From Bacteroidales bacterium (lineage in GTDB: Bacteria; Bacteroidota; Bacteroidia; Bacteroidales; Tenuifilaceae): 64,000 nt of DNA. Location of the stretch: assembly GCA_011045955.1 (NCBI GenBank), contig DSBV01000041.1:1-64000 (forward strand), given 5' to 3'. The notes below the pieces were generated by a model. The model was given only the letters and a program-made list of their open reading frames with translations. It was not told where the DNA came from and did no database searches. Position 1 is the stretch's first letter, and each line of letters begins with the position of its first letter. Positions 18,783-26,591 of this stretch are shown one piece after another. Made by a program: the position numbers and the translations under genes.

Positions 18783-19058
18783 AACGGCTCACGGTTAACG
18801 GTTTAGTTTTAAGATTTATATTCCTCTAAATTCCTCTGACTTCCTTTAACTCCCTCATATTCTCTCTTCTACCGGTCAACGGCTCACGGTTAACGATTCA
18901 CGAACCTCCTTTTTTAATGAATTATAGTTAAGATACGCACCCCATTTTGTTCTGGTTCATTCCAACATTCCTCTAACTTCCTTTAACTTCCTCTAACTTC
19001 CACATATTTAAACTTCTACCGTTTAACGGCTCACGTTTAAAAATTCACGAACCTCCTT
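18783..19058. repeat. Duplicated intergenic repeat unit with decamer arrays
   Basis: Part of a 699-base gap with no gene. Two copies of one composite unit lie head to tail. Each has a 10-bp tandem array (TTCCTCTAAA/TTCCTCTGAC/TTCCTTTAAC at 18821-18850; CTCTAACTTC/CTTTAACTTC/CTCTAACTTC at 18971-19000), then CTTCTACCG, AACGGCTCACG (18878 and 19025) and an identical 16-base ATTCACGAACCTCCTT (18896-18911 and 19043-19058). A further AACGGCTCACGGTTAACG is at 18783-18800. The decamer is the same family, on the opposite strand, as the array before the four-helix-bundle gene at 22.3 kb. Confidence 0.85.
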
Positions 19059-20777: not shown

Positions 20778-22226
20778 ATGGCAGAAGAACAGAATAAAAT
20801 ACTTGAGGAGGTAACCGGGTTGGAGTATAAGTATGGTTTTGTTACCAACGTTGAAACCGATACCATTCCCAAAGGGCTAAACGAAGATGTAATCCGTTTG
20901 ATTTCGGCTAAGAAGGGAGAGCCCGATTGGCTGCTTGAATTCAGGCTCAAGGCTTTTAGGCACTGGCAAACCATGGAGATGCCTCAATGGGCTCATCTAC
21001 AGATTCCGGAGATAAACTATCAGGACATCATTTACTACGCAGCCCCCAAGCAAAAGGCTTTGCTCTCTAGCCTCGATGAGGTTGACCCCGAAATTAAGGC
21101 CACCTTCGATAAGTTAGGGATTCCGCTCGATGAACAAAAGGTCTTGGCTGGTGTTGCCGTTGATGCCGTTATGGATAGCACCTCGGTAAAAACCACTTTC
21201 CGTGAAACACTTGCTGAACAGGGCATCGTTTTCTGCTCCATAAGCGAGGCTATTCGCGAACATCCCGACTTGGTAAAAAAGTACCTTGCCTCGGTGGTAC
21301 CGGTAACCGATAACTACTTTGCGGCACTTAACTCGGCTGTGTTTAGCGACGGCTCATTCTGCTACATACCAAAGGGGGTTCGCTGTCCCATGGAACTTAG
21401 CACCTACTTCCGTATCAATGCAGCCAATACCGGCCAGTTTGAGCGTACGCTCATTGTAGCCGACGATGATAGTTACGTATCGTACCTTGAGGGTTGCACA
21501 GCGCCCATGCGCGATGAAAATCAATTACACGCAGCAGTGGTTGAGATTGTGGCCCTTGAGAATGCCGAGGTTAAATACTCTACCGTTCAGAACTGGTATC
21601 CGGGCGATAAGGATGGTAAAGGCGGTATTTACAACTTTGTCACTAAACGCGGTATCTGTAAGGGTAGGAATAGTAAAATATCGTGGACACAGGTTGAAAC
21701 CGGTTCGGCAATTACTTGGAAATATCCCAGTTGCATCCTTTTAGGCGACAATTCCTATGGCGAGTTCTACTCAGTGGCCGTTACCAACCACCACCAGCAG
21801 GCCGACACAGGAACCAAGATGATCCATATTGGCAAGAATACTAAAAGTCGTATTGTTTCAAAAGGCATTTCGGCCGGTGTAAGCAACAACAGCTACCGGG
21901 GGCTTGTAAAAGTACTTAAGGGAGCCGATAACGCCCGAAATTTTTCGCAATGCGACTCGCTTCTGCTCGGCGACAAATGCGGTGCTCACACTTTCCCGTA
22001 TCTTGAGGTGGATAACCCCACAGCCATTGTTGAACACGAGGCTACCACATCTAAAATTGGTGAAGACCAAATATTCTACTGCAACCAACGTGGCCTATCG
22101 ACCGAAGATGCCGTTGGTCTTATTATTAACGGCTACGCCAAGGAGGTGCTGAACAAACTGCCCATGGAATTCGCCGTCGAAGCCCAAAAGCTGCTGCAAA
22201 TAAGCTTGGAAGGAAGCGTAGGGTAA
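20778..22226 (+). CDS. sufB: Fe-S cluster assembly protein SufB
   Basis: 482-residue scaffold subunit of the SufBCD complex, on which clusters are built in the cytosol. The right-handed beta-helix region and family landmarks are visible: [37 protein letters not shown] and the C-terminal [16 protein letters not shown]. The Cys-containing [19 protein letters not shown] segment includes the Cys implicated in cluster assembly. Length is standard. sufC normally follows at once; here a four-helix-bundle gene and repeat tracts separate them by 560 bases. Confidence 0.97.
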
Positions 22227-22259
22227 GAATGTTGATTATGAAGGATTTAAAAGCAGCAA

Positions 22260-22300
22260 GAGGAAGTTAGAAGAAGTTAGAAGAATTTAGAAGAAGTTAG
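22260..22300 (+). repeat. Decamer array, left arm of an inverted repeat around the four-helix-bundle gene
   Basis: Four 10-bp units (AGGAAGTTAG, AAGAAGTTAG, AAGAATTTAG, AAGAAGTTAG) occupy 22261-22300. Bases 22260-22285 are complementary to 22706-22731 at 24 of 26 positions, so the two tracts form an inverted repeat enclosing the gene. Confidence 0.9.
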
Positions 22301-22322
22301 AGGAATAAATTGAAAAGCTAAT

Positions 22323-22724
22323 ATGAATCAAAATCAAAAATCGTATGTGTTTACTGACCTAATAGTGTGGCAAAAGGCACACAAACTCACGCTTATAGTT
22401 TATTCCATAACCCAAAGTTTACCTCACGAGGAGATTTATTCTTTAACTTCCCAATTTAGGAGATCGGCAATATCAGTTCCCGCTAATATTGCTGAAGGTT
22501 TTAGAAGGAAAGGGAAATTTGATAAACTTAAGTTTCTAAATTATGCTCAGGGCAGTTTAGAAGAAACACGATATTATGCTATTTTGAGCAAAGATTTGGG
22601 TTATGTGGATTTTAACATGTTAGATTTATTAAGTGAAAGCATAACCGAAGTAAGTTTTTTGTTAAACTCGTATAGTTCAACAATTGCCAAAAATGATTAT
22701 AAATCTTCCTCTAACTTCTCCTAA
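22323..22724 (+). CDS. Four-helix-bundle protein (S23/intervening-sequence family) inserted in the suf operon
   Basis: 133 residues of the four-helix-bundle family first known from ORFs in 23S rRNA intervening sequences. Diagnostic segments are DLIVWQKAHKLTLIVY, LTSQFRRSAISVPANIAEGF and a final amphipathic helix. The family probably binds RNA or nucleic acid as a pentamer, but its job is not settled. The gene lies between sufB and sufC on the same strand, within an inverted repeat. Its last residues (KSSSNFS) and stop codon are encoded by the right repeat arm, so the native C-terminus was replaced or extended. The gene is AT-rich relative to suf genes. The ATG at 22323 follows the left arm by 22 bases. 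Confidence 0.88.
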   Translation: MNQNQKSYVFTDLIVWQKAHKLTLIVYSITQSLPHEEIYSLTSQFRRSAISVPANIAEGFRRKGKFDKLKFLNYAQGSLEETRYYAILSKDLGYVDFNMLDLLSESITEVSFLLNSYSSTIAKNDYKSSSNFS

Positions 22725-22731
22725 CTTCCTC
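22706..22731 (+). repeat. Decamer array, right arm of the inverted repeat
   Basis: Reads TTCCTCTAAC/TTCTCCTAAC/TTCCTC. Its reverse complement matches the left arm (22260-22285) at all but two positions. It overlaps the last codons of the four-helix-bundle gene and is followed by a T-run (22734-22741), so the arm plus T-run could also act as a terminator when paired. Confidence 0.85.
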
Positions 22732-22786
22732 AAATTTTTTTATTTCAAACAATAATAATAGTGGTAAATAATCAAACCATAGTCAT

Positions 22787-23539
22787 ATGCTAACAATCAA
22801 AGACTTACACGCAAAGATAAACGATAAAGAGATCCTCAAGGGTATCAACCTTGAGGTGAAAGCTGGCGAGATTCATGCAATTATGGGGCCAAACGGATCA
22901 GGGAAAAGCACCCTTGCATCGGTTCTAACCGGTCGTGAGCTGGTTGAGGTAACACACGGATCGGTAACCTTCAATGGAAAGGATTTGTTGGAGATGGCAC
23001 CAGAAATTCGCGCTCGCGAGGGTATATTTCTAAGCTTCCAGTATCCGATTGAGATACCCGGGGTGAGCATGGTAAACTTTATGAAGGCCGCCGTAAATGA
23101 GCATCGCAAGTATAGGGGATTGGAGCCCCTCTCGGCTTCCGATTTCCTGAAAATGATGCGCGAGCGAAAGGAACTGGTCGAAATTGATTCGGCTCTCACC
23201 AACCGTTCGGTGAACGAGGGCTTTTCCGGTGGCGAAAAGAAGAAAAACGAAATCTTCCAGATGGCCATGCTTGAACCAAAGTTGGCCATTCTCGACGAAA
23301 CCGACTCGGGACTAGATATCGACGCACTTCGCGTGGTGGCTAACGGGGTCAACAAGCTCAAACGCCCCGATAACACCGTTATTGTTATTACCCACTACCA
23401 ACGATTGCTCGATTACATTGTTCCCGATTATGTGCATGTCCTCTACAATGGCCGCATTGTAAAAAGTGCTGGGAAAGAACTTGCCCTTGAACTTGAGGAA
23501 AAGGGTTACGATTGGATTAAAAAAGGCGACAACGCCTAA
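22787..23539 (+). CDS. sufC: Fe-S cluster assembly ATPase SufC
   Basis: 250-residue soluble ABC-type ATPase that powers conformational change in SufBCD. Walker A GPNGSGKST, the Q-loop region FLSFQYP, signature SGGEKKKNE, Walker B LAILDETDSGLD and the His switch VITHYQRLL are all intact. Length is typical. It is followed after 28 bases by sufD. Because the upstream four-helix-bundle insertion may cause partial termination or cleavage, expression relative to sufB could differ; this is inference. Confidence 0.97.
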   Translation: MLTIKDLHAKINDKEILKGINLEVKAGEIHAIMGPNGSGKSTLASVLTGRELVEVTHGSVTFNGKDLLEMAPEIRAREGIFLSFQYPIEIPGVSMVNFMKAAVNEHRKYRGLEPLSASDFLKMMRERKELVEIDSALTNRSVNEGFSGGEKKKNEIFQMAMLEPKLAILDETDSGLDIDALRVVANGVNKLKRPDNTVIVITHYQRLLDYIVPDYVHVLYNGRIVKSAGKELALELEEKGYDWIKKGDNA

Positions 23540-24935: not shown

Positions 24936-24984
24936 GGAGGGACTGATGGGGGACGTTCGTTGATAGAAATTACAGTCTTAAAAT

Positions 24985-25344
24985 ATGGACTATAAGGAAC
25001 TTGATGTATGGAAGTCATCATTTGAATTGGCAAAATTAGTTTACCATTTTACTGGGCAATTACCATCAGATGAGGAATTTGGGCTATCCAACCAATTGAG
25101 ACGCGCAGCCGTCTCAATTCCTTAAAATATTGCTGAAGGTAATGGGCGAAACACTTCAAAAGAAACAATACAGTTCCTTTTTATTGCAAGAGGTTCTATT
25201 TTTGAACTTGAAACTCAACTTATTTTGTGCAATGAGATTTATAAGGTAGATGCTAATGAATATGATGCTCTCTTTCAAAAGTTACAAAACTGCAAAATGC
25301 TGATAAATGGCTTCATTAACTACTATCATAAAAAGTTACAGTGA
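24985..25344 (+). pseudogene. Broken four-helix-bundle (S23-like) gene between sufD and sufS
   Basis: A second, divergent four-helix-bundle gene in the same operon. It encodes 119 residues starting YKELDVWKSSFELAKLVY, with NQLRRAAVSIP, then an in-frame TAA at 25123-25125 where family members have Ala or Ser (SIPANIAEG), then NIAEGNGR and the two final helices. All else is in frame, so a single nonsense change inactivated it. Its own stop (TGA 25342-25344) overlaps the sufS ATG. An 8-base inverted repeat (GTTCGTTG at 24955-24962; CAACGAAC at 25365-25372) flanks it. It differs too much from the 22.3-kb copy to be a recent duplicate. Confidence 0.88.
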
Positions 25345-26591
25345 TGTTCAACACGAACAATGAACAACGAACAACGAACAGCCTACTCAACTATCGCTCT
25401 GACTTCCCAATCCTATCGCGCAAGGTTTATGGGCAGCCATTGGTTTACTTTGATAACGGGGCCACAACGCAAAAGCCCCTTTGCGTGTTGCAAACCATTG
25501 AACGTTTCTACAAGGAGATTAACTCCAATATTCACCGTGGAGTACATAAACTCAGCGAGGAATCGACCCGCGAGTATGAGAACGCCCGCGAGGTGGTTCG
25601 GAAATTCCTAAATGCCCGGAAAACATCCGAGATAATATTTACCTCTGGAACTACTGCATCAATCAACCTTGTGGCCTACTCGTTTGGCGAGGTGTTTGTC
25701 CGCCAAGGCGATGAGGTGCTGGTTACCGAAATGGAGCATCACTCCAACATTGTGCCTTGGCAGCTGCTCTGCGAGCGTAAGGGCGCTACCCTTAAGGTAC
25801 TTCCGTTTGATGACAGTGGCGAGCTTATGCTCGACAAATTACCTGAACTAATCACCCCAAAAACCAGAATTATTGCTGTAACGCATGTTTCAAACACATT
25901 GGGAACCGTTAACCCCATTGCCGACATTGTGCGCATAGCGCACAGCCAAAACGTTCCCGTGCTGGTTGATGGTGCTCAGGGAGTAAAGCATGGTAAAATT
26001 GATGTTCAGCAGCTCGATGCTGATTTTTATGCCTTCTCGGGGCATAAAATTTACGGCCCAACCGGAATAGGTGTGCTTTACGGCAAGGAGGAGTGGCTCG
26101 ACCGAATGGTTCCCTGGCAGGGCGGCGGCGATATGATAGCCACCGTATCGTTCAAGAAAACCACCTTTAACGAGCTGCCATTCAAGTTCGAGGCCGGAAC
26201 GGCAAACTACATCGGCGCAGCCGGATTGGCCACCGCACTTGATTACTATACGAGCATTGGCCCCGAACTTGCCACAGCTCACGAGGACGAGCTGCTAAAA
26301 TACGCTACCCAAAAGCTAAAGGAAATAGATGGGCTAACCATTTACGGGAATGCCCGGGAAAAGGCAGCCATTATATCGTTCCTGCTCAACGGAATTCATC
26401 CGTACGATACCGGAATGATACTCGACAAGATGGGCATAGCCGTCAGGACGGGCAACCACTGCACCCAGCCAGTAATTGACCACTACGGCATTGATGGCAC
26501 TGTGCGAGCCTCGCTGGCATTCTATAATACCTTTGACGAAATTGACCGCCTCGTGAAAGCCCTCCATAAGGTTAAGGAGATGTTTGGATAG
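25344..26591 (+). CDS. sufS: Cysteine desulfurase SufS
   Basis: 415-residue pyridoxal-phosphate enzyme that removes sulfur from cysteine for cluster assembly. It has the PLP lysine in FSGHKIYGPTGIG, the persulfide Cys in RTGNHCTQP, and the N-terminal YFDNGATTQKP. It is a group II (SufS) desulfurase. The first 15 or so residues (FNTNNEQRTTNSLL) are asparagine/threonine-rich, encoded by a heptamer repeat and absent from typical SufS, so the native start has been displaced. The chosen ATG at 25344 overlaps the stop of the broken upstream gene (TGATG); a GTG at 25341 is possible. No sufE or sufU sulfur acceptor is in the window. Confidence 0.95.
   Translation: MFNTNNEQRTTNSLLNYRSDFPILSRKVYGQPLVYFDNGATTQKPLCVLQTIERFYKEINSNIHRGVHKLSEESTREYENAREVVRKFLNARKTSEIIFTSGTTASINLVAYSFGEVFVRQGDEVLVTEMEHHSNIVPWQLLCERKGATLKVLPFDDSGELMLDKLPELITPKTRIIAVTHVSNTLGTVNPIADIVRIAHSQNVPVLVDGAQGVKHGKIDVQQLDADFYAFSGHKIYGPTGIGVLYGKEEWLDRMVPWQGGGDMIATVSFKKTTFNELPFKFEAGTANYIGAAGLATALDYYTSIGPELATAHEDELLKYATQKLKEIDGLTIYGNAREKAAIISFLLNGIHPYDTGMILDKMGIAVRTGNHCTQPVIDHYGIDGTVRASLAFYNTFDEIDRLVKALHKVKEMFG
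25353..25380 (+). repeat. Heptamer tandem repeat inside the sufS 5' end
   Basis: Four 7-bp units (ACGAACA, ATGAACA, ACGAACA, ACGAACA). The same heptamer occurs in the 4.9-kb repeat island (4966, 4980). Here it is translated as part of the SufS N-terminal extension. Confidence 0.85.

Follow-up and report, generated by a model that had tools for sequence, protein, structure and literature searches.

The S23 gene that lies between sufB and sufC is enclosed by two inverted tandem arrays of a decamer, and a similar layout, with a repeat that is specific to the locus, surrounds most of the S23 genes that we analysed, which suggests a cassette moving with its repeats. The reading that we prefer, with slightly better than even confidence, is that of a mobile S23 cassette bounded by arrays, with a ring-shaped protein that would recognise its own repeats. 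The window, that is, the whole stretch of 64,000 nucleotides analysed here (G000:C5:1-64000), is part of a 2.77-Mb draft genome, which we call G000.

Two S23 cassettes in the suf operon

The suf operon of the window has the order sufB, S23, sufC, sufD, S23 pseudogene, sufS. Here sufB (20778-22226) and sufC (22787-23539) were identified by family models, and sufD and sufS were named by their translation and by the order conserved among relatives. The S23/four-helix-bundle gene between sufB and sufC, at 22323..22724 on the plus strand, encodes a protein of 133 aa that falls in the S23 / 23S_rRNA_IVP family above the curated cut-off (PF05635, E 1.5e-35 and 122.1 bits vs a cut-off of 33.8; TIGR02436, E 3.5e-33). 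Its upstream arm (22260..22305, plus strand) is a G/A-rich tandem array of around 4.7 decamers (GAGGAAGTTA GAAGAAGTTA ...), and its downstream arm (22705..22731, minus strand) is the reverse-complement array, with around 2.7 units. Both were found by a repeat search and by Tandem Repeats Finder (TRF), which gave a period of 10 with 4.7 copies at 22259-22305 and 2.7 copies at 22705-22731. The downstream arm overlaps the end of the ORF and starts within the coding sequence, thus the last residues of S23 are encoded by the arm itself. Positions 22260-22285 and 22706-22731, a stretch of 26 nt, are complementary at 24 of 26 positions (92%), as expected of complementary ends enclosing a gene. The first-pass annotation, which had described an S23 gene between inverted decamer arrays, was correct on this point, and the RNA folding that it had recommended, done for 22230-22760, gave a structure with the arms paired (z = -5.08) that none of 100 shuffles equalled in stability.

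When the window was scanned for inverted repeats with arms up to 700 nt apart and a score of at least 34, this cassette (cassette 1) was the sole one of array type, the remaining seven being small single hairpins. The only ORF between its arms is that of S23; there is no transposase gene, such as an insertion sequence would have, and the cassette encodes no enzyme for movement. The pI of the protein, 8.8 (family median 8.1), allows nucleic-acid binding and is no proof of it.

A second S23 gene, between sufD and sufS (cassette 2), had been overlooked in the first-pass annotation. It is a pseudogene on the plus strand at 24985..25344, with ends set from the sequence, a PF05635 match of E 2.1e-35 and one in-frame TAA inside. 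Upstream there is a short piece of heptamer type read from the sequence, GTTCGTTGATAG (24955..24966, plus strand), and downstream an arm of four ACGAACA units (25353..25380, minus strand), found by TRF and by comparison with relatives, which also codes the variable N-terminus of SufS. Taken as arms, these flanks score just 16 by the measure described below, and the upstream arrays at the same place in the relatives G001, G004 and G006 are longer than in G000; cassette 2 in the window is dying. We also observed, at 25341-25400 of the window and at the sufS starts of G001, G004, G006, G009 and G021, that the downstream heptamer array is translated as the SufS N-terminus, so that this end of the enzyme varies with the cassette.

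A PF05635 profile search of G000 gave eight matches, with one gene split in two. Apart from cassette 1, with its decamers (L002), and cassette 2, with heptamers downstream and a short piece upstream (L001), one locus has an inverted array with the unit AAAGTTTATA (L003), with a weak PF05635 match adjoining it (L008), and the split pseudogene (L006/L007) lies between inverted heptamers, GTTAAAA/TTTTAAC. Upstream of locus L005 there are short repeats, followed by a contig end, and the flanks of L004, when read, held no arrays. The unit sequences vary from locus to locus within this genome.

Inverted arrays around S23 genes in other genomes

In order to score the arms, flanks of up to 250 nt were taken and the upstream flank was aligned with the reverse complement of the downstream one, with a threshold of 26. 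The 105 S23 loci scored are best matches and no random draw: 28 came from relatives, five suf-operon copies among them, and 77 from the best 80 of at least 590 confirmed stretches. This named sample of 80, for which an alignment of nine S23 proteins served as the query, includes Bacteroidota, Acidobacteria, Planctomycetes, Cyanobacteria, Chloroflexi, Nitrospirae, Verrucomicrobia, candidate phyla and Methanophagales. One locus of the relatives set (L033) and three of the named sample (L117, L120 and L163) were left out for short flanks. The control consisted of 157 ORFs of 90-400 aa from the same loci.

The first-pass annotation had made its reading depend on four-helix-bundle genes being flanked by inverted repeats beyond chance, and this is what we found: 86 of the 105 S23 loci scored at least 26, vs 5 of the 157 control ORFs. 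The search of relatives, which it had also proposed, gave inverted arms above the 95th percentile of mispaired flanks at 24 of 28 S23 loci, with a unit that differs by locus. Among the 77 usable loci of the named sample, 62 reached the threshold, whereas mispaired flanks did so in 260 of 5852 cases and random positions in 5 of 499. Direct repeats were found at the same threshold in 13 of the 105 S23 loci.

The inverted repeats that make up the arms of the S23 loci have a median length of 31 nt. Of 92 loci, 54 showed a tandem period in the upstream arm and 62 in the downstream arm, vs 2 of 92 upstream arms after shuffling (these shuffles, like those used below for gene-less arms, preserve single-base content only). 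The periods were mostly 7 or 14, also 8-10, and they were equal in 29 of the 43 loci with a period in both arms. In 88 of 92 loci G outnumbered C in the upstream arm, so that the G-rich arm nearly always precedes S23.

Below the threshold there were 19 of the 105 loci, 15 of them in the named sample (L093, L095, L098, L103, L107, L112, L114, L119, L121, L122, L124, L143, L151, L154 and L157). Some of these, such as L154 and L124, were near a score of 26, and others may be decayed or settled copies. A location inside rRNA was considered for the 15 named loci and discarded, the Rfam search giving no match. An S23 match was present in 31 plasmid records, and the phage collection gave none at E 1e-5.

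Inheritance, replacement and alternative explanations

The sufB-sufC junctions were compared, as the first-pass annotation had suggested. Orthologues of the cassette 1 gene occur there in six genomes (G000, G001, G005, G006, G020 and G007), where they form one clade with a species-like order and have a dN/dS of 0.09-0.23 (8 of the 15 orthologue pairs, those with unsaturated dS). Among the other genomes, G003, of the same genus and with a sufB 95% identical, has a different S23 (53%) with a different decamer, GGAATRATTC; G004 and G021 retain arrays around a shortened S23 gene; and the junctions of G002, G011-G014 and G018 have 31-95 nt without S23. Judged by sequence, cassette 1 is an old, vertically inherited and maintained gene under purifying selection. 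The arms paired better with their own partner than with the orthologue's in all 15 pairs at sufB|sufC and in 19 of 28 pairs at the gmk|nadD site of Flavobacterium; when three site sets were pooled, with the sufD|sufS site left out, the own partner was better in 47 of 59 pairs, with 9 reversed and 3 ties, although the orthologous pairs are not independent.

A recent homing at sufB|sufC, read from a low S23 dS and a high sufB dS, was rejected on the dS of sufC: in the pair G000-G001 this is 0.88, close to the S23 dS of 0.82, and therefore that reading was dropped. In the pair G000-G005 the S23 dS is 0.10 vs 0.49 for sufB, sufC being missing there. The comparison of a filled junction (G009) with an empty one (G015, 28-nt gap) showed no target-site duplication, the sufB genes being only 89.6% alike at the nucleotide level and so too diverged to judge, and among the junctions compared here neither a target-site duplication nor an exact empty site was found for S23 cassettes.

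Because of its species-like tree and its purifying selection, cassette 1 resembles a kept gene more than a selfish one, which speaks against our preferred reading. These data, with the vertical inheritance at sufB|sufC, are in line with a domesticated, RNA-binding autoregulator, in which the S23 ring would bind the units of its own mRNA and tune the operon, the arms evolving under binding and with no mobility; TRAP, which binds repeated triplets in RNA, offers an analogy. The sense bias described below, the linkage of unit and protein and the tandem units in many arms are on the same side. Nevertheless, we consider this explanation rather unlikely: it gives no reason for the inverted second array, and it is opposed by the loss and decay seen in the relatives' junctions without S23, by homology that stops at the arrays between unrelated loci and by replacement in place between close species, the last two of which are described in what follows.

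The replacement was found at sufD|sufS. There, the S23 proteins, from six genomes, fall into a single clade with two subclades, G001/G004/G009 and G000/G006/G021, which conflict with the order given by the neighbouring genes. Between G001 and G006 the dS is 0.08 in the adjoining part of sufD and 0.07 in sufS, but 2.36 in S23; the two sequences are near-identical up to the upstream array, the alignment breaks inside the array and it resumes past the downstream array. The downstream array has 3, 3 and 4 TTGATR units in G001, G004 and G009, with no TTGTTC/TTCGTT unit, whereas in G000, G006 and G021 it has 5, 7 and 7 TTGTTC/TTCGTT units and 0, 1 and 1 of the TTGATR type. Thus gene and downstream array change together in all six genomes, and the upstream arrays are mosaic in several. 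Upstream, only G001 (8 to 1) and G009 (2 to 0) have a clean array; both unit types are present in G004 (5 to 7), G006 (3 to 6) and G000 (1 to 1), and in G004, G006 and G021 the upstream array aligns around equally well with both downstream types. A clean exchange of both arms, which we had considered, was weakened by these counts, since with mosaic upstream arrays a clean swap is evident only in part. The comparison shows, at the sequence level, that one S23 type replaced another along with its downstream array, with the breaks within the arrays. The upstream array looks like the record of more than one tenant, and recombination between similar arrays could be the route of the replacement. Two further observations concern this junction. 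In G004 (L071) it has 889 nt and contains the S23 gene, a repeat with GTCATTGCGAGGAGGCACGACGAAGCAATC and a partial duplicate of the end of S23 and the start of sufS, and in G013 (L081) two small genes that on reading resemble a toxin-antitoxin pair are in place of the S23 cassette.

Gene and arrays are also associated across unrelated loci. The similarity of the array units rises with S23 identity over 92 loci (rho 0.22 for all pairs, 0 of 500 permutations as high), and the same holds for the 2713 cross-phylum pairs (Mantel rho 0.187, again 0 of 500 permutations); cross-phylum pairs with 60-70% S23 identity share arrays in 28.6% of cases (84 pairs), vs 2-5% at 25-50% identity. Joint transfer alone could explain this linkage. 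The locus L003 of G000 is 77-81% identical in nucleotides to one of the same genus (L023) and to one of another family (L170), with homology that ends at or within the arrays and with different neighbours, and in Flavobacterium the homology of L129 with L147 and L149 comprises the gene and the arrays and then stops. In both sets, homology is confined to gene and arms at unrelated loci, as expected of a transferable cassette. These boundaries, together with the replacement in place, indicate movement of gene and arrays. Two copies in different places of G004 (L179 and L186) are 91.5% alike over 483 nt, and their homology ends at an outer GGTTCTACC and an outer GGTAGTACC; perhaps here an S23 cassette lies within a transposon-like element. 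The tandem copies L171/L174 of G052 were discarded as boundary evidence because they are a plain duplication with no boundary.

Inverted arms are also found without S23. Flavobacterium nadD loci have gmk upstream in 29 of 30 cases (the exception is L228), and between the two genes there was an S23 cassette in 8 and another gene in 1 (L233, omitted from the gene-less count); L250 was left out of the neighbour-pair comparison for its short flank. Among the gmk|nadD junctions without S23, 15 of 20 had inverted arms above all 20 of their own shuffles, although L230 and L248 were just above them and L254 is a plain hairpin without tandem units. At suf junctions without S23 the arms exceeded the shuffles in 4 of 19, two of them narrowly. 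Pairs of junctions that are 87-88% alike can differ in having an S23 cassette or a gene-less hairpin (L238/L248 and L236/L237). The gene-less hairpins may be ordinary attenuators or terminators. In F. columnare a four-helix-bundle gene is listed between guanylate kinase and nicotinate-nucleotide adenylyltransferase, according to the relevant part of PMC5524665, and this is the gmk|nadD junction studied here.

Other genes lie within inverted arms as well. The five control ORFs that reached the threshold included two PDDEXK_3, one Y1_Tnp and one thioesterase-like; the PDDEXK_3 (PF13366) ORFs seen in arms are L138:5254-5640 and L089:2536-2919. This family is of the GxxExxY type. For each of PDDEXK_3 (L286-L315) and Y1_Tnp we took 30 loci and scored 24 and 21 respectively, the partial, weak or flank-poor ones being omitted. 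Inverted arms were found in 14 of the 24 PDDEXK_3 loci vs 40 of 552 mispaired flanks, with CACAAAG/CACAGAG-like units that by eye resemble those of many gene-less hairpins. The Y1 transposase, considered as a mover, was rejected: its flanks score in 12 of 21 loci, but as REP-like palindromes. Elsewhere in G000 it gave three weak or partial matches.

On these grounds, one could think of array-bounded hairpins moved in trans, be it by a PDDEXK_3 nuclease, by a REP-type Y1 transposase or by plain homologous recombination, with S23 as one passenger among several. The PDDEXK_3 genes in inverted arms, the gene-less arms of Flavobacterium, the mosaic upstream arrays at sufD|sufS and the two G004 copies with extra outer ends are all in line with it. 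However, the units follow the S23 protein, the Y1 flanks are palindromes of a different kind and searches of the G000 and G001 genomes found no PDDEXK_3, so that we regard a mover in trans as unlikely.

Regarding orientation, in the 96 loci with both neighbours, called by a simple ORF finder and with S23 taken as plus, these were (+,+) in 74, (-,+) in 11, (+,-) in 7 and (-,-) in 4, vs 56, 17, 19 and 16 respectively for control genes of up to 250 aa. Measured from where the profile match ends, the neighbours were at median distances of 80 and 72 nt, around the room that the arms need. S23 cassettes thus lie in sense orientation within operons, which fits selection for co-transcription or movement through RNA.

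The first-pass annotation had suggested that cassette 1 may be an element in mRNA like the intervening sequences (IVSs) of rRNA, either processed from the suf transcript or shifting the sufB:sufC ratios. On this reading, RNase III would excise the stem formed by the arms from the transcript, with a change of these ratios. Its anatomy stands, as S23 is in the loop of an inverted repeat, in sense and in a transcript; the processing of the mRNA found no such support. The arms do fold as RNA, the sense placement (74 to 4) agrees with it, and PMC4990558 describes the excision by RNase III of rRNA IVSs, some of which carry S23 ORFs. Nevertheless, on the sense strand the arm mismatches were 81 G.U vs 129 A.C (p 0.0011; 3154 aligned positions in the 92 loci passing the threshold, out of 112, which are the 105 S23 loci and seven suf copies), the opposite of what preserved RNA pairs would give. 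As A.C mismatches outnumber G.U, there is no sign that RNA pairing is preserved; this means that support for an mRNA stem is absent, and it is not a proof against RNA cutting. Mutation bias could contribute to the imbalance. Read on the other strand, the excess is one of G.T wobbles, which could mean template-strand pairing or mutation bias. The host operons are, moreover, many and different, which would leave such excision with no common regulatory logic, and we judge it quite improbable.

Finally, the decamer is not restricted to cassette 1. The window has a lone array of the cassette 1 unit type at 18820..18849 and another of TTCCTCTAAC at 18968..19001, both on the minus strand, without an S23 gene and found by TRF and a pattern search; the first-pass annotation had overlooked these too. 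Two adjoining decamers (up to 3 mismatches) gave 46 matches in G000 vs 2 for the reversed pattern, and outside the sufB|sufC gene the decamer is found at around 33 places, all away from S23 matches, therefore the arms are not exclusive to S23. We read 19 of these places; by eye, blocks resembling the G003 unit are present in around 14 as well, and no inverted partner was seen near any of the 19. As a separate observation, L256-L285 of G000 are interspersed mosaic repeats in which neighbouring blocks have different units (GGAATGAGTC, GGAAGTTAGA, GTGAACC/GTTAAAC and GTGAAAA). That S23 lies by chance between common intergenic repeats of the lineage, for which these other decamer places would speak, is very improbable, being refuted as a general account by the difference between S23 loci and control ORFs, and opposed by arms that are inverted rather than direct and by the many phyla involved.

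Proposed mechanism and comparison with known systems

If the cassette is mobile, as we prefer to think, a pentameric S23 ring would bind its own repeat units, at several sites per arm, and would help to move or re-seed the cassette at the level of DNA, and arrays already present at operon junctions would serve as landing or exchange sites. Were arrays reused as exchange sites, mosaic upstream arrays would result. We know of no function for the S23 proteins, which are widespread and have relatives with solved structures (2gsc and 2rld). One relative forms a homopentamer ring, according to the relevant part of PMC4990558. It is also possible, and we propose it only tentatively, that S23 genes are a class of minimal mobile element in which the ring reads its own units, keeps the inverted arrays matched and homes into array-marked operon junctions; the rRNA IVSs would then be a special case and the PDDEXK_3 (GxxExxY) nuclease genes, with an array type of their own, a sister class.

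If each S23 gene has matched arrays that vary with its protein, the function could be tested directly, as the binding of the ring to its own unit. If true, this would also account in part for many of the short repeats and hairpins between genes in Bacteroidota and other phyla, and it would reveal a small element that occupies the gaps of essential operons and leaves the genes unbroken. The top matches in the openly licensed full text of PubMed Central contain no description of inverted tandem arrays at S23 genes other than those in rRNA, which is weak evidence of novelty.

Among known systems, REPIN/RAYT consists of short intergenic inverted repeats with gene-less hairpins, gene-bearing copies and a Y1 transposase. 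The S23 cassettes resemble it in their short intergenic inverted repeats and in the gene-less hairpins beside gene-bearing copies. They differ in having tandem-array arms and a gene for a four-helix bundle, without the Y1 (IS200-like) transposase. Avd, of the diversity-generating retroelements, is a related family that is not known to have the array arrangement of the S23 cassette, and the matches to it are below cut-off (NF033474, E 4.8e-7 and 30.0 bits vs 80; PF22296, E 1.2e-4 and 23 bits vs 40). The STRR of cyanobacteria are comparable short intergenic heptamer repeats. The TAACTGA heptamer repeats of Beggiatoaceae, Cyanobacteria and Bacteroidetes are, in the relevant part of PMC4679880, direct intergenic repeats with one inverted case; they share with the S23 arrays the 7-bp tandem units between genes in distant lineages and, unlike them, are direct and have a fixed unit. 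Neither term, S23 or four helix, appears in the text of PMC4679880.

The closest comparison is with the 23S rRNA IVSs with S23 / 23S_rRNA_IVP ORFs, known from Coxiella, Leptospira and Brucella with a sporadic distribution (PMC4990558, relevant part). Cassette 1 shares with them the protein family and the form, a short element within a transcript, closed by complementary ends, with the ORF in its loop. It differs in lying outside rRNA, between the protein genes sufB and sufC, in having arms that are tandem arrays of a locus-specific unit and in an RNA pairing that shows no sign of preservation. Therefore, the description as an IVS-like element outside rRNA holds as anatomy, and, if our interpretation is true, the rRNA intervening sequences fall within a larger class.
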